A stretch of DNA of 64,000 nucleotides from Rhodothermales bacterium (GTDB lineage: Bacteria; Bacteroidota; Rhodothermia; Rhodothermales; Bin80), in the NCBI GenBank assembly GCA_951812585.1, contig OX638318.1, forward strand, positions 276,819 to 340,818, in the 5' to 3' direction. Positions 6,021-21,861 of the stretch are shown here, piece by piece; positions within the stretch are counted from its first letter, which is position 1; every line of letters begins with the position of its first letter. A model generated the notes under the pieces. It was given only the letters and a program-made list of their open reading frames with translations. It ran no database searches and was not told the DNA's origin. Made by a program: the position numbers and the translations under genes.

Positions 6021-7762
6021 ATGTATGTAGAACGCATCCCGAATCGGAATTCAAACCCCACGTGGCTGCTGCGGCAGTCCACCTGGAAGAACGGTAAGCG
6101 CGTGAAAACCACCCTCAGCAACCTGACCAAGGTGCCGCACGAGTTCAGAATGCAAATCCGAGCGCTGTGCAGGGGTGGGTGGCATTGTTGTGCGCGACGT
6201 GCTGGGGTATTTCAGGGAAGTGTACCTGAGCGCGCAAAGCGCGCCACACGGACCTGTGGCCGCTACGCTGGGGACCCTGCGCAAGCTGAAACGCGATCAG
6301 CTCATCAGCGCGCGCACCCCGCGGGTGCGTACCATCGTGCTGGCCCTCCTTGTCCGTCGCATCCTTAACCCCGGCAGCAAGTATACCACCGCCAGCGCGC
6401 TTCGGGCGGAAGACCAGCCCCGCAGCCTGGGAGGGGAGCTCGCACTGGAGCACGTGCACGAGAACGCGATCTACCAGGCCATGGATTGGCTCTACAAGCG
6501 CAAGGACGCCATTGAACAGGAGCTCGCAGCCCGTCATCTGAAGGAGGGATCGGTCGTGCTCTGTGACGTCCCATCCCCGTACGTAGTGGGCCACGGCGCC
6601 GATCTGGCTGCATTCGGCTACGCCAGAGACAAGAAGAAGGGCACCAAGCAGATCCACTTCGGTCTGCTCTGCGACAAGGCCGGCCGGTGGGGGTGGAGGT
6701 ATTTTCGGGCAATACGGCCGATCCCGCCACGCTTACTGCGCAGCTGCAGAAGCGCAAGGAGCGTTTTGGCCTGCGCCGGGTCACGATTGTAGGAGATCGC
6801 GGACTGCTGACGCCTGCGCGGCTCACCGAAGCAGTGCAGCCGGCCGGCTATGACTGGATCACCGGCCTGCGCCAGGGCGCCCTCCGTCGCCTGGTGCAGA
6901 AAGAGGACTGCCCGTTGACGCTGTTTGACGAGAGGGATCTCGCGGAGATCACCAGCGACGACTATCCCGGCGAGCGGCTCATTGTGTGCCGCAACCCGCT
7001 GATGGCCGCGCGTGCAAGGAATAAACGCGCGGCATGGCTCCAGGCTACGGAAAAGAAGCTGGACGCACTGATGGCGGCCACCGTGCGCAAGCGGAGGCCG
7101 CTCCGGGGCACGGACAAGATTGCCCTGCGCGCAGGCGCCCTCCTGGGCCGCTACAAAATGCAGAAGCACATCACTACGGTCATCTCTGACGAAGCCTTCA
7201 GCTACCCGCGCGACGAAGCATCCATAGCGCTGGAAGCCCGTCTGGACGGCATGTACGCGATTCGCACCAATGTGACCGAGGACGCGCTCGCATCCGACGA
7301 GGCCGTCGCTTCCTACAAGCAGCGGGCGGTAGTGGCAAAGGCCTTCCGCAGTCTCAAGACCGTTGATCTGAAGGGGCGCCCCATCTACCACGATCGGGCC
7401 CGCCGCATCCAGTGCCCCTCTTCCTGTGTATGCTGGCCTATTACGTACAGTGGCACATGAAAGACAAGCTGGCCCCCATGCTGTTCGCAGAGGAGGATCT
7501 GGCGGCGGCCAAGGCGGCCCGTGCCAGCGTGGTGGCGCCGGCGGAACCCTCCCCGGAAGCACAAAGCAAGGCACGAACCAAAAAGACCAGCGACGGCGCT
7601 CGCGCCACCAGCTTCCAGTCGCTGCTGCGCCACCTGGCTCAGCTGGGCAAGTGCAAGCTGGTAGAGAAGAACAAGCCTGAGGAGACGATCAGGCTGGTGC
7701 TGCAGACGCTAAGCCCCAAGCAAAAGAAGGCCTTTAGGCTGCTCGGCGTAAGCCACCACTAG
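6021..7762 (+). pseudogene. IS1634-family (IS4 superfamily) transposase, frameshifted
   Basis: Four reading-frame pieces line up head to tail as one DDE transposase of about 580 residues. They are MYVERIPNRNSNPTWLLRQ at 6021; a piece from about 6175 (ARTPRVRTIVLALLVRRILNPG); a piece from about 6690 (GVEVFSGNTADPATL, VTIVGDRGLLT, FRSLKTVDLKGRPIYH); and a C-terminal piece from about 7412 (LFLCMLAYYVQWHMKD to the stop). The motifs LCDVPSPY and VGDRGLLT hold the first two catalytic Asp positions. Frames change near 6170, 6680 and 7410, so no full transposase can be made by normal decoding. A truncated relative lies at 8145 and a more distant member at 59958. It is either a decayed copy or a copy with single-base errors. 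Confidence 0.85.
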
Positions 7763-8144
7763 GCGGGCCGACAGCGCAGCCAGCCAGCGGCACTCGTCGC
7801 AAATTCCACAAAATCCAAGCGCCTTATTGGTCCCCTTGCCGGGTGCAATACTATGAAGTTCAGTCCTGAAGCGGGCGGCAGACGCGTGCTCCAGTGCTCG
7901 GATCCGCGCCACCACCAGGGAGCTTCTGCCACCCACTATTCCGCCAACCCGGTGCCATCGCCAAACTCCCAAGGCTAATCTGAGGTTACCCCCACAGCAT
8001 CAGATTGTGGGGAAGACGACTGGCCACTATTGCCTTAAGTAGTGATGGTAAGGTGTCACGTTTTGCAACGTTGTTAGGTCTTGGCTCTTTTCTACCTTAA
8101 TAAGTAAGGTAGCTGCAGCGTCTCTATTTCAATAATGTGTACCC
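7763..8144. other. Intergenic region between two transposase remnants, with hairpins
   Basis: No gene is seen. Two perfect inverted repeats stand out: CCCCACA (7990-7996) with TGTGGGG (8006-8012), and CTACCTTA (8092-8099) with TAAGGTAG (8105-8112). The second lies 33 bases before the start of the second transposase remnant and could be part of an IS end or a terminator. Neither is followed by a T-run convincing enough to call it a terminator. Confidence 0.4.
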
Positions 8145-8590
8145 ATGTACATTGCCCGCATCCCCAACAGGAACTCGCGCCCTACCTACCTCATACGCCA
8201 CGCGCGACGGGTCGGCAACAAAATCGTCAAGACCACCGTCCTGAACATCACTGCCCTGCCGGACCATGCCATCGAGGGCCTCCGCATTCTGCTGCGCGGC
8301 GGGATTGCCGTGGACGACCCCAAGATATCGCCCTCGAGAAGGCCTTTCGCTTCGGTGAAAGCACGCCGCATGGCCATGTGGCCGCTGTGCTTGGCACCAT
8401 GCGCGCACTGGGCCTGCCCCAGATGATTGGTGCGAAGAACTCCCGGCGCCGACGCCTGGTGCTGGCGCTGATTGCGGCCCGCATAATCAAGCCTAAGAGT
8501 AAGCGGGCGACCGGCTACAAAGCAGTGGCCGGAGCACATTCCCGATACGCTCGAGAATGTGGCACGAGCCCTATTGTCTACATCGCCTGA
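8145..8590 (+). pseudogene. Truncated IS1634-family transposase, N-terminal remnant
   Basis: The start MYIARIPNRNSRPTYLIRH is clearly related to the start of the copy at 6021 (MYVERIPNRNS). After a frameshift near 8325 the similarity continues in another frame (FGESTPHGHVAAVLGTM, RRLVLALIAARIIKPKSKR), matching the same order in the first copy. The remaining two thirds of the transposase, with all catalytic motifs, are missing. The sequence similarity fades around 8530; the frame closes at 8590. The copy is dead and marks the left border of the ubiquitin-like/patatin locus. Confidence 0.8.
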
Positions 8591-8726
8591 AGAACTGCTT
8601 GATTGGGATAAGACCACTAAGACGGTTGCGACAAGTAGCAATGATGGAGTCAGCTCGGAAAGCTCTTGAACGCATACCCGCCTACAGCCGTGTACTTAGT
8701 GTCAGTATTATGTACATATTATGCTC

Positions 8727-8835: not shown

Positions 8836-11800
8836 TCACCAGTAAGCATCCGCGAGAAGATGTGCAAGTTGCTCACCTCGTCGAGAAATTTTCTCGAGGT
8901 CTACTTCACCCATGGCACGAAAGTCTGTAGGATAGCCAATCACCTGGTTTCGTTTTACGAAATCTTCTGGAAGTGATCCAACGTTGAGGTCTCGTTGAAG
9001 AGCTTCGTCTTTCATGCCGAGATACGGGAGAATTAGCGCATTGAGGTCGCCTGATGCACGTTGATCGAAGAGATGGCTCATTGTGCGATCCTGTCCTTTT
9101 CGGAACATCGCCTCGATGGCCCGCTTCATGCGGTTCGGCCAACCGTACGGAACAATGGCCCCATCCCACTGACCGTGACCCGCGTTGCAGCAGATGAGGC
9201 GTTCACATGGGTAAGCATGGGCCGTGTAGTCTGAGTTGCGTGATGGATCTAGACACGACGCACCAAGGTTGTCGTATATGCCCCCGTCTGTAAGAACTAC
9301 GCGTTCGGTACTTACTTCGTCGTTTCGCTGAAAGCTATACCGCTTGTGGAGGGCAGGAAGTAGCACCGGGTATGCGGCCGAAGCAGCAACGGCCGTAGCG
9401 ACAAGGACATCTTCCTGGACAGTCCCGAACCGCCAGCACGCGGAAACGCGACTGCCAAACCGGAAGGCCGTACCTGTCCGAAGCTCAGTAGCGTTGAGGA
9501 TCACGTCGAGACCAGTACGGCGGGGTTCATTCACTAATGCGTTGCCAAAGAGCTGTTTACGCAGAGCACCCTCAAACGCAGTTGTGCGGCTAGCCCAGCG
9601 GAGAAACGGTGGCGCAATTGGTATCGGTGATCTCTTCGCCCGGTTGGATGTCAACAGATTTTGACATACGGCTGCAATGCAGCGTACCAACTGAGCGCCC
9701 GCTGCAGCCGTGCCTGCTACAAGAAGAGTTGAAACTATAGGAGCTAATTGGACAGGTTTGAGCAAAGCTGCAGCTATATCCTTTTGGAGCCCCCGCCGCA
9801 GAAGTGCACAGACCCGCGCGTCAAAAGTGCTGAAGTCATCGTCGGAATAGGCGTACATCGCTGCAAGAACAGCCCCGCCGGAGACGGCAGAAATAACGCC
9901 TACTTCGTCAAGAATACCACGCGCATGGAGAGCCCGCAGGCAGCCAAGGTGGAATGCAATGGCGCGGGATCCACCACCAGAGAGGGCAAGGCCTACTTCT
10001 GACCGCCGTAACGAGGACTTGGCATTCGAGCTACGCAGGGATCCCGGCACGGCAGCGCTCGGGTCAGTTTCTACTCGAGCCTCACGAAAATCATTACGGC
10101 CGAACACATAAGTTCCAAGTCTGGGTTCCTCGTGAGGCGTCCCCATAATGGACAGCAGCAACCTACGCGGGCTTACCGGGCCGTCGGCCAATATTTTGGC
10201 TATGCCATGGAGATCGGTCTGGCTCGGAACAGGTACTCCGTGAGGATGGGTATGCCACATTCCCACGTAACGGACGCTGCCGCGCGACCACCGCTCTCGT
10301 TCCACATGGGCTGCTTGGGTGCCAGCGGTACCGCACATGAACAGATCTGGTCGCGCAACGCTATCGGAAGGTGGACCACTCACCTCCGTAATCCAGATGA
10401 CGCTGATTGCATCATTTCTTTCCCCAAACGAGAGTCCGCCAGTCTCGACATCCGGCCCGACTGCATCACGACTCCTCGTGATGCAGTCCTCCATTTGCTT
10501 CCAAGCTTGAGCAGACGTACGAATTTCGTAGCCGTGCTGGATGTCTTTAGTCACGATGTCGGGTGTGTAGGCGAAGCTAATGGAGAACTTACGATGACGG
10601 GTACTTGCCGGTACTGCACAGGGTTGACTGACGTAGTGTGCCGACGCTGTCGGAAGGTTCGCTTCCGCCTGCGGATGTTGATATCGACATAGGTATTTCC
10701 CTACCACGTTGAGCAAAAGGGCTGAGAGTGCAGATACATCGGCCGACGATCCAACGAAAGTTGGGCTCGAGCATCCCGGCTCAGGCTGGAAAAGGTTATC
10801 ATCAGACAGAGTCGAATAAAAGGCGTCTGCAAAGTGGCGTAGTGAACGGTCTCGGCAGACATCAATCTTTGCACGCCTGTACACATCTGCTGCTGCACCC
10901 GTGTGGTCAGGCGTCGCGACAACCGTAAGCCCGTGGGTTGCCTCGCGGCTGATTATCATCGAGACAACTGCCGCACATGCCTGCGGGTTGCTCTTTCGCA
11001 CCTCCTCAAGCTTCGTTCGGACACCTCGGGCGGCTGTGCAGTCAAAGACTACATCGGCGGCATCGGTCCAGTCGTCGCTAGTTAAAGCGGACGTGAGTAC
11101 ATCCAAGACGATGGGGACAACCTCAAGTCCCCGAGTGCCAGGTCGGATGGCACGTAGCTTAGCAGCGAGTGCCTCCGCCTTCGGTGTCCCAATGTCCGCA
11201 TCGTCATAAGGCTGGCGTACGAGAACACCAGGGGTTACTATCCCGTTGTCCCGAAGGATGAGTTTGGCCACCCCTGCACGCGCGAGATGCAATGCAACTT
11301 GGCCGCCGAGAGCTCCACAACCCCAAACGGCAACCACCTTTCCTCGGAACACGCTTAGGGGAGACGCATGGTCACGGCGGGTCACAATCTCTGGACGATC
11401 CTCTAGGACATGGCACCATGAGACAGTCGTACTCTCCGCCCACTTGAACATGATGTGTTCACACTCTTCTCCTATCGCCCGCAAAACCCTGTCATCCGAG
11501 TATTTGTTGACGATGAGCCTGAATCCCTTTGCAAACGTTGGCTCAATCCGCCATGCCGTCAAGTGTTGCTTAAGTTCATCACTGCCACGGATGCCTCTCA
11601 TTGGCGTGCCGATAATCACGTAGAGGGGGACATCTTCTTCGTTTCGCAAGGAAGCATCCTGAAGCAGAAGGAAGAGTTCTTGCTTTGAGACTCCTCGGAT
11701 ATCCAGAGCTGCTACGAGGTCTATCATGCGAGTAGGAAACTCCCATGGCATTGGTTGGGCGAGCAGAGCACAGGCAGCGATTGACCCAACTCTCCCATCG

Positions 11801-12378
11801 AATGGTTGGTCAGTCCACGCAATGATGTCGACACGGTACTCGTGGACAACATTCAAGCCAGCAAATCCGCACCAAGGCAAGCCCGTGACAACGGGTGTAT
11901 CGACGCGTGGTAAGACGCAATAGCGGGGTCCAGCCTGGGGATAAGTCACTGGTGGATGAAGGGCTCCACCTACGGGATCCAATTCGTTTAGGCTCGCCTT
12001 CTCCAGCCACATCCAAAGGCGGTCGACGAATCCAAACATTCCATCATTCGGATCCCATTCGACATCTGGGGCCTGGTAGAGACACAGGGAATGTGCCCAC
12101 TGGACGTGTGGCCGCCCCGCAAACCGTGTATGCCGAGTGCAGACCCACGGCTTGGAAAACGGGAAGTCAGCAGGGATCTTGACGAGAAACCTCTCGCGAG
12201 CGCGGAGGATGATTCCCTCGGGTACACGATCAAGATCGGCTGTATGAAGCGAGATGTCGAGACATAGAACACCGGCTGGCTCCGATGGCTTGACAATAGC
12301 GACAATGGTAAACGTACCTTTCCCTGCCGCTTGGATTTCGAAGACCTCGTTGAGAGCTTGGGTTTGTCCGTCGCTCAT
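8836..12378 (-). CDS. Four-domain E2 / E1 (ThiF) / JAB / patatin phospholipase fusion
   Basis: A 1180-residue protein. Residues about 10-150 look like a bacterial E2 (UBC-like) domain with HVQWAHSLCLYQ, the likely thioester Cys being C99. Residues 150-340 are unassigned; by analogy with CBASS Cap2 they may be a linker plus an inactive adenylation domain. Residues about 345-575 are an E1/ThiF domain: nucleotide loop GCGALGG (353-359), D377, and EPGCSSPTF with candidate catalytic C536. Residues about 625-770 are a JAB/JAMM isopeptidase: E645 (ETGG), H709 and H711 (HTHPHG), S719 and D722. Residues about 795-1060 are a patatin lipase: oxyanion loop GGGSRA (801-806), nucleophile S833 (AVSGG) and D1031 (DGG). 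All key residues appear present. Its start overlaps the MBL gene stop by 4 bases (ATGA). No CD-NTase or ubiquitin-like modifier gene is adjacent. A conjugation-controlled membrane-lipid effector in defence is inferred. Confidence 0.88.
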   Translation of the reverse strand: MSDGQTQALNEVFEIQAAGKGTFTIVAIVKPSEPAGVLCLDISLHTADLDRVPEGIILRARERFLVKIPADFPFSKPWVCTRHTRFAGRPHVQWAHSLCLYQAPDVEWDPNDGMFGFVDRLWMWLEKASLNELDPVGGALHPPVTYPQAGPRYCVLPRVDTPVVTGLPWCGFAGLNVVHEYRVDIIAWTDQPFDGRVGSIAACALLAQPMPWEFPTRMIDLVAALDIRGVSKQELFLLLQDASLRNEEDVPLYVIIGTPMRGIRGSDELKQHLTAWRIEPTFAKGFRLIVNKYSDDRVLRAIGEECEHIMFKWAESTTVSWCHVLEDRPEIVTRRDHASPLSVFRGKVVAVWGCGALGGQVALHLARAGVAKLILRDNGIVTPGVLVRQPYDDADIGTPKAEALAAKLRAIRPGTRGLEVVPIVLDVLTSALTSDDWTDAADVVFDCTAARGVRTKLEEVRKSNPQACAAVVSMIISREATHGLTVVATPDHTGAAADVYRRAKIDVCRDRSLRHFADAFYSTLSDDNLFQPEPGCSSPTFVGSSADVSALSALLLNVVGKYLCRYQHPQAEANLPTASAHYVSQPCAVPASTRHRKFSISFAYTPDIVTKDIQHGYEIRTSAQAWKQMEDCITRSRDAVGPDVETGGLSFGERNDAISVIWITEVSGPPSDSVARPDLFMCGTAGTQAAHVERERWSRGSVRYVGMWHTHPHGVPVPSQTDLHGIAKILADGPVSPRRLLLSIMGTPHEEPRLGTYVFGRNDFREARVETDPSAAVPGSLRSSNAKSSLRRSEVGLALSGGGSRAIAFHLGCLRALHARGILDEVGVISAVSGGAVLAAMYAYSDDDFSTFDARVCALLRRGLQKDIAAALLKPVQLAPIVSTLLVAGTAAAGAQLVRCIAAVCQNLLTSNRAKRSPIPIAPPFLRWASRTTAFEGALRKQLFGNALVNEPRRTGLDVILNATELRTGTAFRFGSRVSACWRFGTVQEDVLVATAVAASAAYPVLLPALHKRYSFQRNDEVSTERVVLTDGGIYDNLGASCLDPSRNSDYTAHAYPCERLICCNAGHGQWDGAIVPYGWPNRMKRAIEAMFRKGQDRTMSHLFDQRASGDLNALILPYLGMKDEALQRDLNVGSLPEDFVKRNQVIGYPTDFRAMGEVDLEKISRRGEQLAHLLADAYW

Positions 12379-13550
12379 GACCGCCCAAAGCCTACTTCCT
12401 GGGTGGGCGGGGCATTCGAGCCGCGGGCTGTTTGGATGGCAGCGGCAAGGGTAACCTTGAGCGAGTTGGCACTGTCGGTTGAATCATCAGATGTCTCGAC
12501 TTCCAAGAGGACGCATCCTTTCGTGTCGATTTTGAATACCACGGGTCCACCATGCTCGTGGGTGCAAATGAAGTGGTGCTCGGACGACACGATTTCCTCG
12601 TAGCGCTGGCGAGCCTTGAGGTAAGGCGGGTTTTTGCCTTTCTCATCCGAGAAGTCCGCCTCAGAGCTTGAGACTATACGACCGTCATCCCCAACCATCT
12701 CATCGAAGTCATCAAGAATGTCCTGCCTGAGGACTTCGTCATCGTCATCCTCACCCTTCCAGTACATAGCGCTCTTGGAACAGTGGTGGGGGGCGAGGAG
12801 CACGTCGGTATCGAGCCGCTCCTGCCTCCTCTTCTCCTTCGTCTTATCGACGATACGACGGAGTGTCGGATAACTAAGATCGCCGAAAAAGAGGGCTCGG
12901 CCCTGCCCACCGTCATTCAAGACCGTGATGTGGAGGGCGAGGCTGGTCTCATTGCGTTCGCCAGCGCTTCCATCCTTGAACGGGGCGTGAATAAACGCCT
13001 GGAATGCCTCACCATGATCGATTCCGTCGATTTCCGTGACGGTGTCGCTCGGGCATGTACGCCAGCGCTTCGGAAAATCTCTATACTTGCCTTTGGCGAA
13101 TACATCATCGTGGCCGATGACGAGAACCCGGTCAAGCGATGGCGTGTTGTCACCCTTCTCCATTGTGACCTCACGGCGGCGCTCAACCTCGTCTTTAAAG
13201 GCGCACGCGTCGTCACAAAGGTCCGTGTCATTCTCCCGGAAGATACACGGCGTGTGCCAGATCTGGCCGATGTCAACACGCTCAAGGAGATGGATGAAAC
13301 CGAGGACATGATCTTTATCGGGGTGCGTGAGTGCGAAACCGGCGAGATAGGGGCGGCCATTCCGCTTGGGAAGGAGCCGTACAAGTTCGTCTACGATTGG
13401 CACATGCTCCTCATCCTCATCCTCCGACTTGGAGAGATGGTGGAGGTCGACTTGCAAAACAGTTTCGTCCTTGTCAATCACTACTGTGGCGCTGTCGCCG
13501 GTTCCGACAGGCCAAAAGACGAATCCAGAATTCGGAAGCTCAAAGGTCAT
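12375..13550 (-). CDS. Metallo-beta-lactamase-fold hydrolase (ComEC/Rec2-like)
   Basis: 391 residues with the MBL metal motif in the form THPDKDH (H76, D80, H81), followed by FFGDLS (around 222) and APHHCSKSA (H255, H256). These match ComEC-type stand-alone MBL proteins rather than beta-lactamases. No signal peptide, so cytoplasmic. It is the first gene of the minus-strand operon and overlaps the E2-E1-JAB-patatin gene by 4 bases, which suggests fixed stoichiometry or joint action. MBL genes beside E1/E2/JAB modules are known from comparative surveys of bacterial ubiquitin-like systems. The C-terminal tail after about residue 350 is polar and ends in a Gly-Phe-Gly-Arg-Ser sequence. Substrate unknown; possibilities include a nucleotide or nucleic acid. 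The ATG at 13550 has no clear Shine-Dalgarno. Confidence 0.85.
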   Translation of the reverse strand: MTFELPNSGFVFWPVGTGDSATVVIDKDETVLQVDLHHLSKSEDEDEEHVPIVDELVRLLPKRNGRPYLAGFALTHPDKDHVLGFIHLLERVDIGQIWHTPCIFRENDTDLCDDACAFKDEVERRREVTMEKGDNTPSLDRVLVIGHDDVFAKGKYRDFPKRWRTCPSDTVTEIDGIDHGEAFQAFIHAPFKDGSAGERNETSLALHITVLNDGGQGRALFFGDLSYPTLRRIVDKTKEKRRQERLDTDVLLAPHHCSKSAMYWKGEDDDDEVLRQDILDDFDEMVGDDGRIVSSSEADFSDEKGKNPPYLKARQRYEEIVSSEHHFICTHEHGGPVVFKIDTKGCVLLEVETSDDSTDSANSLKVTLAAAIQTARGSNAPPTQEVGFGRS

Positions 13551-13617
13551 GTTTAAGTACCGTTTGAGAATGGGGACCGTGACGGGGTTGTAGGCCCCAC
13601 CAGAGACTACTACGAGG

Positions 13618-13684
13618 AAGCGTGACAGACTTGTGCGTTTTCGCGATCCGACCGCGAACCCTGGGCATCTGCCTTGTCACGCTT
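13618..13684. promoter_or_regulatory. Nested inverted repeats in the divergent promoter region
   Basis: Between the MBL gene (leftward) and the sigma-factor gene (rightward) lies a perfect 10-bp inverted repeat, AAGCGTGACA (13618-13627) and TGTCACGCTT (13675-13684). Inside it is a 6-bp inverted repeat, TTCGCG (13640-13645) and CGCGAA (13653-13658), with nearly the same centre (about 13650). The position in a 185-base divergent intergenic region makes this a good candidate operator or paired binding site controlling both transcription units. No -35/-10 pair could be assigned with confidence. Confidence 0.5.
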
Positions 13685-13735
13685 ATTCGTAGATTAATGA
13701 CAAGCAGCTAGTGCCCCGGACAACCTCGCACCTCA

Positions 13736-14503
13736 ATGCGATTGGTCATACCTGAACCATCGCCGCTGGACACAGAGTCCGACGCCGAACTCCTGCTCAT
13801 CGGCGCCGCGGGCGACGAGAATGAGCGTCGTCAAGCGACGAACGCCTTTTTCAGGCGCTACGCTCGCCAGCTGTACGGATTCTGCCGGCAATCCCAGCGA
13901 ACGCTGGGCGGTGCAGAAGTTGTCGACGACCTCGTCATTATGACGTTTCAGCGTGCGTTTAAACGCGCTGATAGCTACAACAGTGATGGAATCGTCGATC
14001 CGGAACATTCGCGCGCGCGAACTTTCCGATGGCTTACGACAATCGCAAAGAATCTGATGCGAGACTGGCTTAGGAGCAGTAGCGAGCACCATCCTCCTGC
14101 GCTTACGAGCATTGCCAAACCAGACAGGCAAATCGAAGGCCAATTCGCCCGTGCAGCAGAGGAGGCTAAGCCCCGACGGTACGCGAGGCTTCCAGACGAT
14201 GCTGTCGAGAAGATTCACGACCCAACTGCTATTCAGAAGTTCATCGGCAACGATGATGAATCACCGCTCACCATCTCTCCCGAGGGAAAATGCCTCCAAG
14301 AAGCGCTGGCAACCCTGGCGGAACGGGAACGGGAGATCCTTCTACTTTCGGCGCAGTACTCCATTGATGGAAAACAACTTCGGCTTCCACCGGACGTTCT
14401 GAACGGACTGTGCGCGCGCTGGGAAACGACGAAGATGAACGTTCGCAAGATTCGTATGCGGGCGCGCAACAAAGTCGAAGAGTACATGGCAACACACTGC
14501 TAG
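13736..14503 (+). CDS. RNA polymerase sigma factor, ECF/sigma-70 family
   Basis: 255 residues. Region 2 features appear at residues about 35-105 (FRRYARQLYGFCRQSQRTLGG, DDLVIMTFQRAFKRA, ARTFRWLTTIAKNLMRDWLR), which fit sigma region 2 including the promoter-melting segment. A region-4-like helix-turn-helix is at the C-terminus (LAEREREILLLSAQ, then WETTKMNVRKIRMRARNKVEEY). The middle linker is longer than in typical ECF sigmas. It is divergent from the MBL/E2-E1-JAB-patatin operon and followed by a 119-residue protein and an ImmA/IrrE peptidase. It may therefore drive the defence operon or be released by proteolysis of a neighbour; that regulatory role is inference. Confidence 0.8.
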   Translation: MRLVIPEPSPLDTESDAELLLIGAAGDENERRQATNAFFRRYARQLYGFCRQSQRTLGGAEVVDDLVIMTFQRAFKRADSYNSDGIVDPEHSRARTFRWLTTIAKNLMRDWLRSSSEHHPPALTSIAKPDRQIEGQFARAAEEAKPRRYARLPDDAVEKIHDPTAIQKFIGNDDESPLTISPEGKCLQEALATLAEREREILLLSAQYSIDGKQLRLPPDVLNGLCARWETTKMNVRKIRMRARNKVEEYMATHC

Positions 14504-14531
14504 CCTTCACCCAAACCTTTCTCGTAGCCAT

Positions 14532-14891
14532 ATGAAGAAGCGGATGCATAAGACCCGTACGGGCAAGACCCGGTCATCGGTTCACGAGTCGTCGCTAATT
14601 GAGGCTCTCAGGAGCGGTGGATTCATCGCCCCGGCAACAGACGAAGATGCCCGTCGATGCCTGGACCGGTTCAGCGATTCATCTACTAAACTGCCACCTG
14701 CTCTGCAGGATGCTGACGCTGCAGTCAGCCGCATCCTCGGAGAGAAGGTACATCTGCCGGAGCAATTGCTGCGTCAACCTGAAACCGAGCAAGCATACTC
14801 GCTGAGACGTGCAGCCAGAAAGGGAGGCTCAATCTCACCTGAGATCGAAAAGGCAATGCGACAGGCCCGCGAAGGAGAGGACAGCGAATGA
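14532..14891 (+). CDS. Small protein of unknown function between sigma factor and ImmA/IrrE peptidase
   Basis: 119 residues, not recognised. The N-terminus is strongly basic (MKKRMHKTRTGKTR), the middle is helical and polar (DARRCLDRF, ALQDADAAVSRILGEKV), and the C-terminus is acidic (ending EGEDSE). No signal peptide, metal motif or helix-turn-helix is obvious. It starts 28 bases after the sigma gene and its stop overlaps the start of the peptidase gene by 4 bases (ATGA). The gene order sigma / small protein / ImmA-type protease makes an anti-sigma factor or protease-cleaved repressor a reasonable hypothesis. It does not look like a ubiquitin-fold modifier, and it has no C-terminal Gly. Confidence 0.7.
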   Translation: MKKRMHKTRTGKTRSSVHESSLIEALRSGGFIAPATDEDARRCLDRFSDSSTKLPPALQDADAAVSRILGEKVHLPEQLLRQPETEQAYSLRRAARKGGSISPEIEKAMRQAREGEDSE

Positions 14892-15736
14892 GTAAGCGGC
14901 TGCACCTCACACGCAATCGCGTCCAAGAGATAGCTGATTTGGCCGAAGAGGTCGCTGGCTATCAATTTCCTGTCAACCCCATCGCCATCTTGCGAACTCA
15001 GGCTAGGATCTCGTTAAGGCGCGGCCATTTTGGCGACGCCTTTGACGGGCTTCTGGAGTGGCGTGAGGGGCGTTTCTGGGTCTACAGCAACCTTGTGAGG
15101 GTTGGCCCGCCTGAATCTGCTCGGGAACGGTTCACAATTGCACACGAACTTGGGCACTACTTCATCGATGAGCACCGTAATGCGCTCATAAGGGGAGTAG
15201 GTTGTCATCCATCCTTCAGCGAGTTCCAATCAGACGAGTTGGCCGAGCGCGAGGCTGATTTATTCGCCTCTCGCCTTCTCATGCCAACGTGGGCATTTAC
15301 CGCTGCCATACCGAAGAATCCGCAGGGGATACCCGACATTCTTACGCTGAAAAAACAATTCGAAACCTCGCTCACCAGCACTGCTATTCGGTACGTGGGC
15401 CTTGCCGGCTTTTTCTGTGCGATTGTGAAGTGGAACGATGATGGATTCGGGTGGCGCTGGACATCTCAGGAAGCCTACGAAAACCGGTATTGGAGTACGA
15501 TCAAGTCCGCAGATCGTCTTCCACGGGACTCCGCCACTCGAATGATCATGCGAGGGGAAGCATCCTCGCCCGGTTTCATCGAACGCGGTGCCGTGGCTTC
15601 GATGTGGTTTGACTACGTCGGCATGGGTGGGCAGCGCGATATAATCTTGATAGAGCAGGCGATTTCGCTAGGCCAGTACGGTTGCTTGACCCTTCTTCTG
15701 CCCGCGCCAAAGAATGGCCAGTGGCCTTGCCACTGA
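14888..15736 (+). CDS. ImmA/IrrE family metallopeptidase (COG2856-like)
   Basis: 282 residues. The zinc-peptidase motif HELGHYFIDEH (HExxH) is near residues 87-97, and EREADLFASRLLMP about 30 residues further on supplies the third ligand, as in ImmA and IrrE. The N-terminal part (about 1-85) is the usual family lead-in (VNPIAILRTQARISLRRG). The C-terminal third is a less conserved extension. Known members cleave or control a DNA-binding repressor after DNA damage (ImmA/ImmR, IrrE/DdrO). Here no XRE repressor is adjacent; instead the partner appears to be the overlapping 119-residue protein and the sigma factor upstream. It is probably a sensor/protease controlling this defence locus. Confidence 0.88.
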   Translation: MSKRLHLTRNRVQEIADLAEEVAGYQFPVNPIAILRTQARISLRRGHFGDAFDGLLEWREGRFWVYSNLVRVGPPESARERFTIAHELGHYFIDEHRNALIRGVGCHPSFSEFQSDELAEREADLFASRLLMPTWAFTAAIPKNPQGIPDILTLKKQFETSLTSTAIRYVGLAGFFCAIVKWNDDGFGWRWTSQEAYENRYWSTIKSADRLPRDSATRMIMRGEASSPGFIERGAVASMWFDYVGMGGQRDIILIEQAISLGQYGCLTLLLPAPKNGQWPCH

Positions 15737-17082: not shown

Positions 17083-20000
17083 GTGCACTACGGGGAGTGG
17101 GCCCGGGCGCAGGGCTTGCCTGAAACAGACCTGGGCATCGACCTGGTCGCCAAGGTCCGAAGCGGCGAAGGCTGGTGCGCGATCCAGTGCAAGTTCTGGG
17201 CCAAAGGCAAGCGGCTGCAGAAGGCTGACATAGCGCAGTTTCTGGCGGCTTTTCCGCCGGGCATTACGCGCCGCCTGCTCATTGATACGACGGGAAAGGA
17301 CTGGGGTCACAACGCCGATGCGCTTTTGCGCCAGCATGCGATCCCGGTGGCTCGCATTGGGCTGCACGAGCTTCGTCAGAGTCCGATTGACTGGTCGCAG
17401 TTCGTAGAGACCGAAGAGGTCACGCGCCCGGAGCCCAAGACGCCACGTCCACACCAGGAAGAGGCCATACGCAAGGCTATGACCGGCCTTGCAGACGAAG
17501 GCTCCCGCGGCAAGCTCATCATGGCATGCGGAACGGGCAAGACGTTTACGTCGCTTCGCATTGCGGAGGACCTTGCGGGACGCGGTGGCCGCGTGCTGTA
17601 CCTGGTGCCCAGTCTGGCCCTCATGTCCCAGACGGTGCGGGAATGGGCCGCGGATGCGCGGCTTTCGCTCCGGGCGTACGCAGCATGCTCGGATGTGCAG
17701 GTTGGCCGGCGTCGTCGCCGCAACGACGACCACATCGACATGGACGCGCTGGATTTGGCCTTTCCGGCAACGACGGATGCGGCCAAGCTGGCGGAGAAAG
17801 CTTCCCCACACGCACCCGATGATCTTACGGTGGTATTTGCCACGTACCACTCGCTTCCCGTGATTGGCGAAGCTCAACGGATTCATGGGCTGCCGGACTT
17901 TGACCTGGCCATCTGTGATGAGGCCCACCGGACAGCAGGCGCGCGCATCAAGGGTGAGGAGGACAGCCACTTTGTAAAGATCCACGACCAGGCGCATATC
18001 CGGGCGCATCGCCGGCTGTACATGACCGCTACGCCGAAGGTATATGCCCCGTCTGCGCGCAACAAGGCGGGTAAAGTGAACGCTGCGCTGTGCTCCATGG
18101 AGGATGAGGCGCTGTACGGCCCCGTCCTGTACGAGATCGGCTTCGGGAGCGCCGTGGAACAGGGGCTCCTCACCGACTACAAGGTGATCGTGCTGACGGT
18201 GCCAGAAAATGCCGTCGCCCATGGAATGCACGAGTCAATGGCCCGGTATGAGCTGAAGCTGGACGATGCGGGCAAGCTCATTGGCTGCTGGCGGGCGCTG
18301 GCGAAGGCCGATGAGGAGGAATTTCCTGAGGATGATCAGCTGCCCATGCGCCGGGCCATCGCCTACTGCCGCGACATCAAGTCCTCCAAACAGGTGGAGA
18401 CGCTCTTCGGCACAGTGGTGCACGAATACCGCGAATCGTCTCAGGCGAACGCAAAGGACGAAGTGTCGGACTATGCGGTCGTAGCGCAGCATGTCGACGG
18501 CACTTTCAATGCGCTGAGGCGCAGCGAGCGCTTGACATGGCTTGACAGCGTGCGCCCGGCCGACGGGGCCTGTCATGTGCTTTCGAATGCGCGCTGCCTG
18601 GCCGAGGGCGTGGATGTGCCGGCGCTGGACGCCATCCTCTTCATGCATCCGCGCAAAAGTCAGATCGACGTGGTGCAGGCGGTGGGCCGCGTGATGCGGC
18701 GTGCTCCGGGCAAGCAGATGGGCTACGTCATACTGCCCGTGGTGATTCCCTCCAATACGGATCCCACAGCCGCCCTGGAAAAGTCTGACACGTTCCGTGT
18801 GGTCTGGCAAGTGCTGAATGCCATTCGGTCGCACGATGAACGGTTTGAGGCCATGCTCAACCTCTTGGAGGAAGGCCGATCCGGCACGCACTTGAGCATC
18901 GTTGCGCTTGCGGACTGGCAGCCAAGGCCTTCCAACGGCAGGAGCACTATCGATATTGGCGAAAACGGTAATGGCGATAAAGACACCGTCGGTAAGACAA
19001 GGTTCGCTGAGCCGGAACTGTTTGATCTGCCCGCAGCGATACGCGCCAAGATTGTGGAGAAGTGCGGCAACCGGCGGTACTGGGACGAGTGGGCGGGGGA
19101 TGTCGCGGCCATAGCCCGGCGGCATATCGAGCGCATATCGGCGATAGTCACAGCTGACGAGTCAGGCAGCGCAACGTTGGATTTGGATGCATTGCTTGCC
19201 GACGAGGCGGTGCAGGAGATATTTGAAGAATTCCTGGATGAGCTACGCGATGACCTGAACGAGGGCATATCCAAGCAGGATGCCATCGAGATGCTCGCGC
19301 AGCACATGGTCACCCGACCCGTCTTTGAAGCGCTGCATGGCGATGCCCGGTTCGTCGATCAGAACCCGGTTAGCAAGGGCATACAGCTGATCCTGGATGT
19401 CCTGGAGCCTGCCCACATCGAGCAAGAAGCGGAAAGTCTCGAGGCGTTCTACGACAGCGTTCGCAGGCGCGCCAAGGCCGCGAACACGCCGCTGGCCCGG
19501 CAGAAGATCATCACGGAGCTGTACGACAAGTTCTTCCGGAACGCTTTCCCGAAGACAGCACAGAGGTTGGGCATCGTATACACGCCGATAGAGATCGTGG
19601 ACTTCATCCTGCACTCGGTGGATGAGGTGCTACGCACAGAGTTTGGCCAGTCGCTGTCCTCAGACGGCGTACAGATCCTGGATCCCTTCACCGGAACGGG
19701 CACCTTCATCACGCGCATCATCCAGAATGGCCTGATCAGGCCTGAGTCTCTGGCCAAAAAGTACGCGTCGGAGATCCACGCCAATGAGATCATGCTGCTG
19801 GCGTACTACATCGCGGCGGTCAACATTGAAGCGGCCTTTCACGCCGCCGTGGGGGCGGACGAATACCAGCGCTTCCCAGGGATCATCCTGACAGATACGT
19901 TCGAAATGCAGGACAGCCCAGATCTGATCGCGAATATTCTGCCGGAGAACTCCGAACAGCGCAAGAAGCAGAAGGATGCGCGCATCCGGGTGATCGTAAG

Positions 20001-21861
20001 CAATCCGCCGTGGTCGGCAGGTCAAAGAAGCGAGAACGATGCGGCCCAGAATCAGAAATACCCGAACCTCGATAGCCGGATTACAACAAACTATGCGCAT
20101 CATTCAAAGGCGACCAACAAGAACAGCCTGTACGACAGCTACGTGCGGGCGATTCGTTGGGCGTCTGATCGCATCGGGGACAGCGGCGTGATCGGGTTCG
20201 TGACGAATGCGGGCTGGCTGGACGGAAACGCCATGGACGGCATGCGCAAGTGCCTAGAGGAAGAGTTTACGGGCATTCATGTGGTCCATTTGCGGGGGAA
20301 CCAGCGGACACAGGGCGAACGGTCGCGACAAGAAGGGGGCAAGGTATTTGGGGCGGGGTCACGGGCGCCGGTGGCGATCACCCTGTTGGTGCGAAACCCA
20401 AAGCGCCACGGGTGCAGGATTCTGTTCCACGACATCGGCGACTACCTGAATCGCGAGGAGAAGCTCAACAAGGTCAAGGAGTATCAGAGCATCCGCGGCG
20501 TGGCTGCAAGCGGAGGCTGGTCGACCATCGTGCCGGATATGTACCACGACTGGCTCAATCAGCGCGACGCGGGCTTTGCGGCGTTCATGGCGTTGGGAGA
20601 CAAGTCTGGAGGCATACAGATTGGCGAAAAGATTTTCAAGAACTACTCACAGGGGGTAAAGACCAATCGCGACGCCTGGTGCTACAACTTTTCGAAGACT
20701 GCGCTGAATGACAAAGTGCAGGGCATGATCCGCTTCTATGAAGCGGAGCGACGGCGACTCCAGGATCAGATTGTAGCTGCGCACAGGCTGTCGGCAGCGG
20801 AGATTACCCGCCTCATAAACAACGATGCCACCAAAATCAGCTGGTCGGACGGCCTGAAAACCCACTTGCGCGGGAACAAGAGACTCAGCGTCGAAGAGGG
20901 ACGCATTGCGGCGTCTCAATACAGACCCTTCACGAGGCAGTACATCTACCTGAGCCGAAGACTGAATGACAGGGTCTACCAGATCCCGAAGCTGTTTCCA
21001 CACGGAGAGGCGGAGAACCGGCTCATCTGTGTGCCGGCAAAAGGGGTAAAAGACGATTTTACGTGCCTCATGGTCGACATCATACCCGATCTGAACCTGA
21101 TCACCGGCGGACAGTGCTTTCCGCGGTGGCAATATGCAAAGAATGGTTCGCCCGAAGCCAGATTGTTTGCCGAGGAAGAGAAATCGGACGCCCACGGGTA
21201 CGTGCGCCAAAGTGCGATCAGCAAGGAATCAATCACCGCCTTTGCGGAGAAGCTGGGTGCCGAGTGCAAGGTAACCGCGGACGACCTCTTTCACTACGTG
21301 TACGGCGTGCTGCACCTCCCCTCCTATCGCACCAAGTATCAGGCAAACCTTAGCAAAGAGCTGCCCCGAATACCGATCCCAGTGAAGCTGGAGGACTACC
21401 GGGCGTTGGCCCAAGCCGGCGAGGCGCTCGGCAAACTCCACACGGACTACGATGATGGGGAGCCGTGGACCATTGAATTTGCAGACGGCGGCTGGAAGCC
21501 GCGTAACGGGACAGCAGAGATGGAGTGGTTTCGCGTGGGCAAGCCCATGCGCCATCCCGGCAGTGGAAGAGCCAAAGACAGGACGCGCATCTGGTACAAC
21601 GACTACATAACCATTAAGGGTATCCCCGAGGAGGCCTACGACTACATGGTGAACGGCAAACCGGCCATCGCCTGGGTCATGGAACGGCAGTGTGTCAAGA
21701 ATCACAAAGCCAGCGGCATCGTCAACGATGCCAACCGCTACGCCCTGGAAACCATGCAGGACCCTGCCTATCCGCTGAAGCTCCTGGCCAGAGTGATCCG
21801 CGTCAGCATCAAAACCCTGCGCATCGTAAAGCAGCTGCCAGACCCCGTGTGGCATTCGTAG
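17083..21861 (+). CDS. Type ISP restriction-modification enzyme (nuclease-helicase-methyltransferase)
   Basis: 1592 residues in the open frame. Near the start is an Mrr-like PD-(D/E)XK nuclease (GIDLVAKVRSGEGWCAIQCKFW: D then QxK). Next is an SF2 helicase (about 125-620) with Walker A MACGTGKT, DEAH box CDEAHRTAG, motif III-like MTATPKVY and motif VI-like QAVGRVMRRAPGK. An N6-adenine methyltransferase follows (about 830-1200) with SAM motif DPFTGTGTF and catalytic NPPW. The C-terminal 350-400 residues are the target-recognition part. This order is that of single-chain LlaBIII/LlaGI-type enzymes, which need no partner subunits. The true N-terminus lies at 16916 but is separated by a one-base frameshift. 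If that is real, the nuclease domain might still be made from the GTG with its first helices missing. It stands next to the ubiquitin-like/patatin locus in a defence island. Confidence 0.93.
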   Translation: MHYGEWARAQGLPETDLGIDLVAKVRSGEGWCAIQCKFWAKGKRLQKADIAQFLAAFPPGITRRLLIDTTGKDWGHNADALLRQHAIPVARIGLHELRQSPIDWSQFVETEEVTRPEPKTPRPHQEEAIRKAMTGLADEGSRGKLIMACGTGKTFTSLRIAEDLAGRGGRVLYLVPSLALMSQTVREWAADARLSLRAYAACSDVQVGRRRRRNDDHIDMDALDLAFPATTDAAKLAEKASPHAPDDLTVVFATYHSLPVIGEAQRIHGLPDFDLAICDEAHRTAGARIKGEEDSHFVKIHDQAHIRAHRRLYMTATPKVYAPSARNKAGKVNAALCSMEDEALYGPVLYEIGFGSAVEQGLLTDYKVIVLTVPENAVAHGMHESMARYELKLDDAGKLIGCWRALAKADEEEFPEDDQLPMRRAIAYCRDIKSSKQVETLFGTVVHEYRESSQANAKDEVSDYAVVAQHVDGTFNALRRSERLTWLDSVRPADGACHVLSNARCLAEGVDVPALDAILFMHPRKSQIDVVQAVGRVMRRAPGKQMGYVILPVVIPSNTDPTAALEKSDTFRVVWQVLNAIRSHDERFEAMLNLLEEGRSGTHLSIVALADWQPRPSNGRSTIDIGENGNGDKDTVGKTRFAEPELFDLPAAIRAKIVEKCGNRRYWDEWAGDVAAIARRHIERISAIVTADESGSATLDLDALLADEAVQEIFEEFLDELRDDLNEGISKQDAIEMLAQHMVTRPVFEALHGDARFVDQNPVSKGIQLILDVLEPAHIEQEAESLEAFYDSVRRRAKAANTPLARQKIITELYDKFFRNAFPKTAQRLGIVYTPIEIVDFILHSVDEVLRTEFGQSLSSDGVQILDPFTGTGTFITRIIQNGLIRPESLAKKYASEIHANEIMLLAYYIAAVNIEAAFHAAVGADEYQRFPGIILTDTFEMQDSPDLIANILPENSEQRKKQKDARIRVIVSNPPWSAGQRSENDAAQNQKYPNLDSRITTNYAHHSKATNKNSLYDSYVRAIRWASDRIGDSGVIGFVTNAGWLDGNAMDGMRKCLEEEFTGIHVVHLRGNQRTQGERSRQEGGKVFGAGSRAPVAITLLVRNPKRHGCRILFHDIGDYLNREEKLNKVKEYQSIRGVAASGGWSTIVPDMYHDWLNQRDAGFAAFMALGDKSGGIQIGEKIFKNYSQGVKTNRDAWCYNFSKTALNDKVQGMIRFYEAERRRLQDQIVAAHRLSAAEITRLINNDATKISWSDGLKTHLRGNKRLSVEEGRIAASQYRPFTRQYIYLSRRLNDRVYQIPKLFPHGEAENRLICVPAKGVKDDFTCLMVDIIPDLNLITGGQCFPRWQYAKNGSPEARLFAEEEKSDAHGYVRQSAISKESITAFAEKLGAECKVTADDLFHYVYGVLHLPSYRTKYQANLSKELPRIPIPVKLEDYRALAQAGEALGKLHTDYDDGEPWTIEFADGGWKPRNGTAEMEWFRVGKPMRHPGSGRAKDRTRIWYNDYITIKGIPEEAYDYMVNGKPAIAWVMERQCVKNHKASGIVNDANRYALETMQDPAYPLKLLARVIRVSIKTLRIVKQLPDPVWHS

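Follow-up and report, generated by a model that had tools for sequence, protein, structure and literature searches.

A sigma factor, a small protein and a CapP-family protease recur as a cassette beside immune operons and may serve as their damage-responsive controller

The window analyzed here is a stretch of 64,000 nucleotides of a Rhodothermales bacterium. It carries three co-directional genes on the forward strand, encoding an ECF-type sigma factor (13736–14503, 255 aa; identified from the ORF, Pfam and NCBIfam), a small protein that we call protein X (14532–14891, 119 aa; ORF and family alignments), and a metalloprotease of the CapP family (ImmA/IrrE, M78; 14888–15736, 282 aa; PADLOC and a family profile). 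The sigma factor and X genes are separated by a gap of 28 nt (14504–14531), and the X and CapP genes overlap by 4 nt (14888–14891). On the reverse strand, starting at position 13550, lies the gene for the MBL-fold protein of a 6A-MBL operon (12375–13550; NCBIfam NF058524), accompanied on the same strand by the gene for an E2-E1-JAB protein of 1180 aa with a C-terminal patatin domain (8836–12378); they are the presumed first and second genes of the regulated operon. The triad is thus divergent from the MBL operon, and the 185-nt intergenic region (13551–13735) presumably contains the promoters of both. Coordinates and strands agree with the first-pass annotation, which had described a closely spaced, co-directional set of genes divergent from the MBL operon. 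It had also remarked on a sigma factor unaccompanied by an XRE repressor, and indeed the sigma factor matches Sigma70_r2 and sigma70-ECF above their cut-offs, whereas no XRE or HTH gene, and no CapH, lies within the triad.

The divergent operon is of the 6A-MBL type, as the MBL enzyme scores 250.3 bits against a cut-off of 220 (NF058524, E 2.9e-74) and the cap2_3 protein 348.5 bits against a cut-off of 320 (NCBIfam NF058523, E 8e-104). Within the product of 8836–12378, Pfam matches the Prok-E2_A, ThiF, Prok-JAB and Patatin families. The patatin phospholipase domain (residues 797–1040 of 1180) falls beyond the 665-position NCBIfam 6A-MBL cap2_3 model, and is possibly a built-in effector. Downstream of the triad a 1592-aa type IIG restriction-methyltransferase is encoded (17083–21861, forward strand; PADLOC E 0), which identifies this region of the window as a defence island. 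Adjoining the 6A-MBL operon, broken transposase-like ORFs in two similar pieces (6175–8641) point to remnants of insertion sequences at the edge of the island.

By its sequence, the first gene of the triad encodes an ECF-type sigma factor in which regions 2 and 4 are both present. It matches Pfam Sigma70_r2 (E 5.9e-7) and NCBIfam sigma70-ECF (TIGR02937, E 2.1e-15), with region 2 at residues 38–115 and a region 4 that has a longer linker ahead of its HTH and NVRKIRMRAR as recognition helix. When the family profile was compared with solved structures, region 2 resembled ECF factors and region 4 resembled RpoH/SigA. Region 4 was also predicted with a pLDDT of 76–98 by block in a model of the sigma factor fused to X, and its Foldseek matches were sigma factors.

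The third gene can be classified as a CapP, that is, an M78/IrrE zinc peptidase with an HEXXH motif, homologous to the characterized CapP. Matches were obtained to Pfam Peptidase_M78 (E 3.5e-12) and PADLOC capP (E 1.8e-46), and the family profile matches the solved CapP structure 7T5T at 1.7e-24. The window protein contains HELGH and EREADLFASRLLMP, and HELGH and EADxFASxLLMP are conserved motifs. The earlier assignment as an ImmA/IrrE protease is therefore sharpened to CapP. ssDNA activates CapP, and likewise PprI, a distant relative, and both proteases cleave a transcription factor (PMC10904395, PMC13373217); by analogy, the window CapP may respond to ssDNA as well.

Protein X has no relative in Pfam, NCBIfam or the PDB, matches no HTH family, and shows no detectable homology to any anti-sigma. 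Its family is characterized by an N-terminal G-x(3)-P...E block and a C-terminal AAR-x-G block followed by an amphipathic helix, and residues P34, A95 and R96 are invariant in the family alignments. We considered whether X could be a remnant of CapH, but the PADLOC capH match is weak (E 0.007) and a profile–profile comparison of X with CapH gave a probability of 0.4%. Structure prediction of X alone was too poor for a fold search (pTM 0.27). The sigma factor–X complex, modelled as a read-through fusion after alignments that matched halves of the sigma factor to X had been set aside, reached a pTM of 0.33, with confidence for region 4 alone and no reliable interface. On the basis of co-occurrence and gene order, X is a candidate anti-sigma that would hold the sigma factor inactive. 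It is also the most likely substrate of CapP, since it is encoded between sigma factor and protease in every triad and has an invariant Ala-Arg (Ala95-Arg96) preceding a conserved Gly. An Arg is likewise invariant in the CapH alignment, and an Arg is important in the cleavage loop of DdrO (PMC10904395); the arginines of X, CapH and DdrO may be equivalent.

Searches with the sigma factor gave no match in the plasmid collection, none in 395 genomes at E 1e-15, and nothing in a related-locus search with this protein alone, because the sigma factor diverges fast; we therefore repeated the search through CapP. Among the best 30 CapP loci of the 395 genomes, which represent the phylum of the window, 12 besides the window have genes for a sigma factor and X immediately preceding CapP, in an order identical to that of the window, several of the sigma factors being weak in single-sequence searches and confirmed by profile. 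A scan of species genomes identified the triad in Acidobacteriota, Verrucomicrobiota (Spartobacteria), Balneolota (Fodinibius) and many Bacteroidota, and further copies are located on viral contigs and on one Segatella copri plasmid. As the same gene order is conserved in some 30 other loci across these phyla and viral contigs, the triad is no chance arrangement.

The first-pass annotation had proposed looking for conservation of the triad beside E2-E1-JAB-patatin and other defence operons, and this was strongly borne out: in 21 of 29 assessable loci an immune operon adjoins the triad directly, in divergent orientation. The operons concerned are CBASS (with Cap15, SaNUDIX or patatin effectors), Bil, multi-ubiquitin/E1, Cap2-like E1, E2/E1/JAB and 6A-MBL, the operon of L065 being assigned from the near-identity of its gene starts to those of L039. 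No immune operon adjoins the triad in L033–L037, and the neighbours in L053, L064 and L078, also counted among the exceptions, are not readable as a clear immune operon. Homologues of the three genes are thus not scattered through unrelated contexts, with the exception of one family (L034–L037) that has the triad in a conserved nusA-infB-rbfA-like housekeeping neighbourhood (gene names by eye). In the genomes G390 and G272, TGTCACGCTTNGGCGTA-like repeats flank the triad on both sides. The recurrence of the triad beside many different anti-phage operons in several phyla gives it the appearance of a portable on-switch. The cassette is also modular: between the start codon of the first operon gene and the stop codon of CapP, the DNA of L040 and L062 is approximately 97% identical, and beyond this L040 continues into a CBASS operon and L062 into an E1 operon that includes a ubiquitin-like gene. 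Across the triads, supported branches of the tree require the operon type to have changed at least four times.

CapP is partnered either by sigma factor and X or by the HTH protein CapH, and never by both, in 80 species loci, some of which have neither partner by the profiles used. In a maximum-likelihood tree of CapP the partner label requires two changes, against 21.8 for shuffled labels; two triads from viral contigs sit on the CapH side. CapH+CapP also occurs in G278, a genome from the same family as the window, and the CapH+CapP loci seen on plasmids share the divergent geometry of the triads. A third, more divergent three-gene form was observed in L106 (4166–5902), L110 (4858–6639) and L131 (4075–6573), with proteins of about 195 aa and 121–134 aa encoded upstream of CapP that fall outside the sigma and X profiles; its CapP lies within the sigma–X side of the tree. 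The viral contigs L135 and L136 carry sigma–CapP loci, and in the tree the L135 CapP sits on the CapH side.

The intergenic region of the window contains an 18-nt inverted repeat with arms at 13610–13627 and 13675–13692, 47 nt apart. The half-site TGTCACGCTTCCTCGTAG (13610–13627, reverse strand) faces the MBL operon, and TGTCACGCTTATTCGTAG (13675–13692, forward strand) faces the sigma operon. A search of the 3.2-Mb genome that allowed up to two mismatches gave exactly two sites for the half-site TGTCACGCTTNNTCGTAG, both of them in this region. Related pairs are present in most triads; significant inverted repeats were found in about half of 19 non-redundant triad intergenic regions, and the hexamer CGTGAC in 10 of them, against 0.7 expected. 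CapH control regions, compared alongside, have different sequences. The spaced architecture of the window recurs in L135 and L136, where paired TGTAACG...GTCGTA sites about 40 nt apart lie about 110 and 55 nt upstream of the sigma factor gene.

Read inwards, the arms present a -35-like block, AAA[C/G]CG, and GTA or GTC follows this block after 15–17 nt in 26 of 38 half-sites, with 0–3 at any other spacing; given that the half-sites were selected visually and that many of the loci are relatives, we treat this as a strong pattern and not as a test. The spacing corresponds to the promoter geometry of ECF factors, so that the repeat would constitute two promoters placed face to face in most relatives. 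Such a reading would yield nearly leaderless sigma mRNAs in L042, L043 and L078. In the window neither -35-like block is followed by a GTA or GTC -10 at the expected distance, and the outer TCGTAG block, which is repeated and conserved in the half-sites, is left unaccounted for by the promoter reading. The residue of the recognition helix that aligns with sigmaE S172 and SigW T171, both in contact with the -34 base (PMC6713349), tracks one base of the motif: it is hydrophobic with TAACG (6 of 6) and polar with TCACG (13 of 13), with L038 (Met, TGACG) and L042/L044 outside both classes. This covariation of sigma factor and motif is suggestive only, because the tree allows one to three independent changes. 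Lone sigma-facing half-sites in L034, L036 and L037 were dismissed as promoter evidence, as the element also flanks the triad downstream (G390/G272) and a reversed-pattern control gave similar counts.

Taken as a whole, we consider it probable that the triad, together with the divergent promoter region, is a portable cassette that controls immune operons in response to damage. In the resting state the ECF-type sigma factor would be kept inactive by X. The ssDNA that arises from DNA damage or phage replication would activate CapP, as in CapH+CapP, and the activated protease would cut X, most likely at or near Ala95-Arg96. The freed sigma factor would then bind core RNA polymerase and transcribe from the paired promoters in 13551–13735, raising expression of both the 6A-MBL operon (MBL, E2-E1-JAB-patatin) and the sigma factor's own operon. 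The main doubt about this model is whether the sigma factor is a true activator, given that its region 2.2 aligns as DDLVI, with Ile in place of the Gln usual in ECF factors (DLVQ). In most ECF sigma factors this Gln binds core, and it is gone from most relatives too.

The leading rival explanation holds that the sigma-like protein and X together are a repressor bound to DNA at the paired sites, in effect a split CapH, and that cleavage of X by CapP leads to derepression. CapH, the known substrate of CapP, is itself a repressor, and the paired sites look like operators overlying the presumed promoters; the core-binding Gln is gone in many members, and the window pair is without a canonical -10. 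However, a repressor would not need a region 2 that is kept above the Sigma70_r2 cut-off. The spacing of the sites, ranging from 0 to 47 nt, is unlike that of a dimer operator and makes a symmetric operator the less likely reading of the repeats, and most loci fit the -35/15–17 nt/-10 geometry of ECF promoters in both directions. We therefore regard repression by sigma factor and X as unlikely.

Another possibility is that the triad belongs to a general stress regulon of the host and merely tends toward defence islands, as might be thought from the L034–L037 family in its housekeeping setting. This has a small chance of being correct, in view of the 21 of 29 triads that have an immune operon as their immediate divergent neighbour, the cassette of L040/L062 that ends exactly at the first operon gene, and a window motif that is found nowhere else in its genome. 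CapP could also cut the sigma factor itself, with X as an adaptor or chaperone, so that transcription is shut off or pulsed; in both CapH+CapP and PprI-DdrO it is the DNA-binding protein that serves as substrate. The most conserved candidate cleavage stretch, the invariant Ala-Arg, is located in X, though, X is always encoded between sigma factor and CapP, and an immune operon that is turned off by damage makes little sense, which renders this the least probable of the readings considered.

The best model, release of the sigma factor by CapP, joins CapP sensing to a protease/anti-sigma/sigma logic like that of CalpL/CalpT/CalpS. CapH+CapP has a homologous CapP, the same divergent placement beside CBASS and ubiquitin-like operons, and a presumed ssDNA trigger (PMC13373217), whereas the window has sigma factor and X where the HTH repressor CapH sits directly upstream of capP; the predicted logic is consequently one of activator release instead of repressor loss. 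In the type III CRISPR Calp system, cleavage of an inhibitor frees a sigma factor in the immune response, and protease, small inhibitor and ECF sigma factor are likewise encoded in one operon; the Calp protease, however, is a Lon-SAVED protein triggered by cA4 in one CRISPR context (PMC11417357). The window cassette has an M78/CapP protease without SAVED and a 6A-MBL neighbour, and its family serves many immune operons. CapK+CapS and CapW/BrxR are controllers that respond to DNA damage and adjoin immune operons of these classes, but are built of unrelated proteins, CapS and CapW being repressors. Pairs of the RseA/RsiW type also have a small partner gene after the ECF sigma factor and proteolytic release, yet RseA and RsiW are membrane proteins cut by site-1/site-2 proteases, whereas the protease of the triad is cytoplasmic and X has no known anti-sigma domain.

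The first-pass annotation had suggested a protease-released sigma factor as a new way to arm a defence operon. This suggestion is supported in part; it had overlooked the CapP identity of the protease, the known damage-responsive controllers CapH+CapP and CapW, and Calp as a precedent for protease, anti-sigma and sigma factor in defence. What looks new is the combination of CapP with a sigma factor and its deployment as a swappable controller, the parts (CapP, ECF sigma factor) being of known kinds. In the papers open to our literature search, no sigma factor is linked in this way with CapP or with a CBASS or ubiquitin-like operon. The cassettes would, somewhat more likely than otherwise in our judgement, represent an undescribed family of controllers, in which CapP destroys an anti-sigma, the freed ECF sigma factor fires a bidirectional promoter, and a mobile cassette swaps between operons of the CBASS, Bil/multi-ubiquitin and 6A-MBL types and takes the place of CapH+CapP in Bacteroidota and other phyla.

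CapH+CapP and CapW have been assigned to 219 of 544 Bub operons and CapK+CapS to 59 (PMC13373217), which leaves about half without an assigned controller; the sigma–X–CapP cassette could explain part of these. If the model is true, a damage-sensing protease can be rewired from repressor removal to activator release, and immune operons can be silent by default and fired through a dedicated promoter. The nearly identical cassettes of L040 and L062 beside two immune operons offer a ready natural experiment. Small basic ORFs of 41–65 aa (MAKDSSGKKFNRIPEYKRK..., MATNPPKDGSRKGAV...) occupy the interval from the divergent promoter to the immune genes in L040 (11498–11671), L042 (8098–8223), L043 (8615–8788), L044 (8007–8132), L062 (4816–4941), L064 (4801–4932) and L066 (4717–4914), and are common to CBASS and E1 operons.
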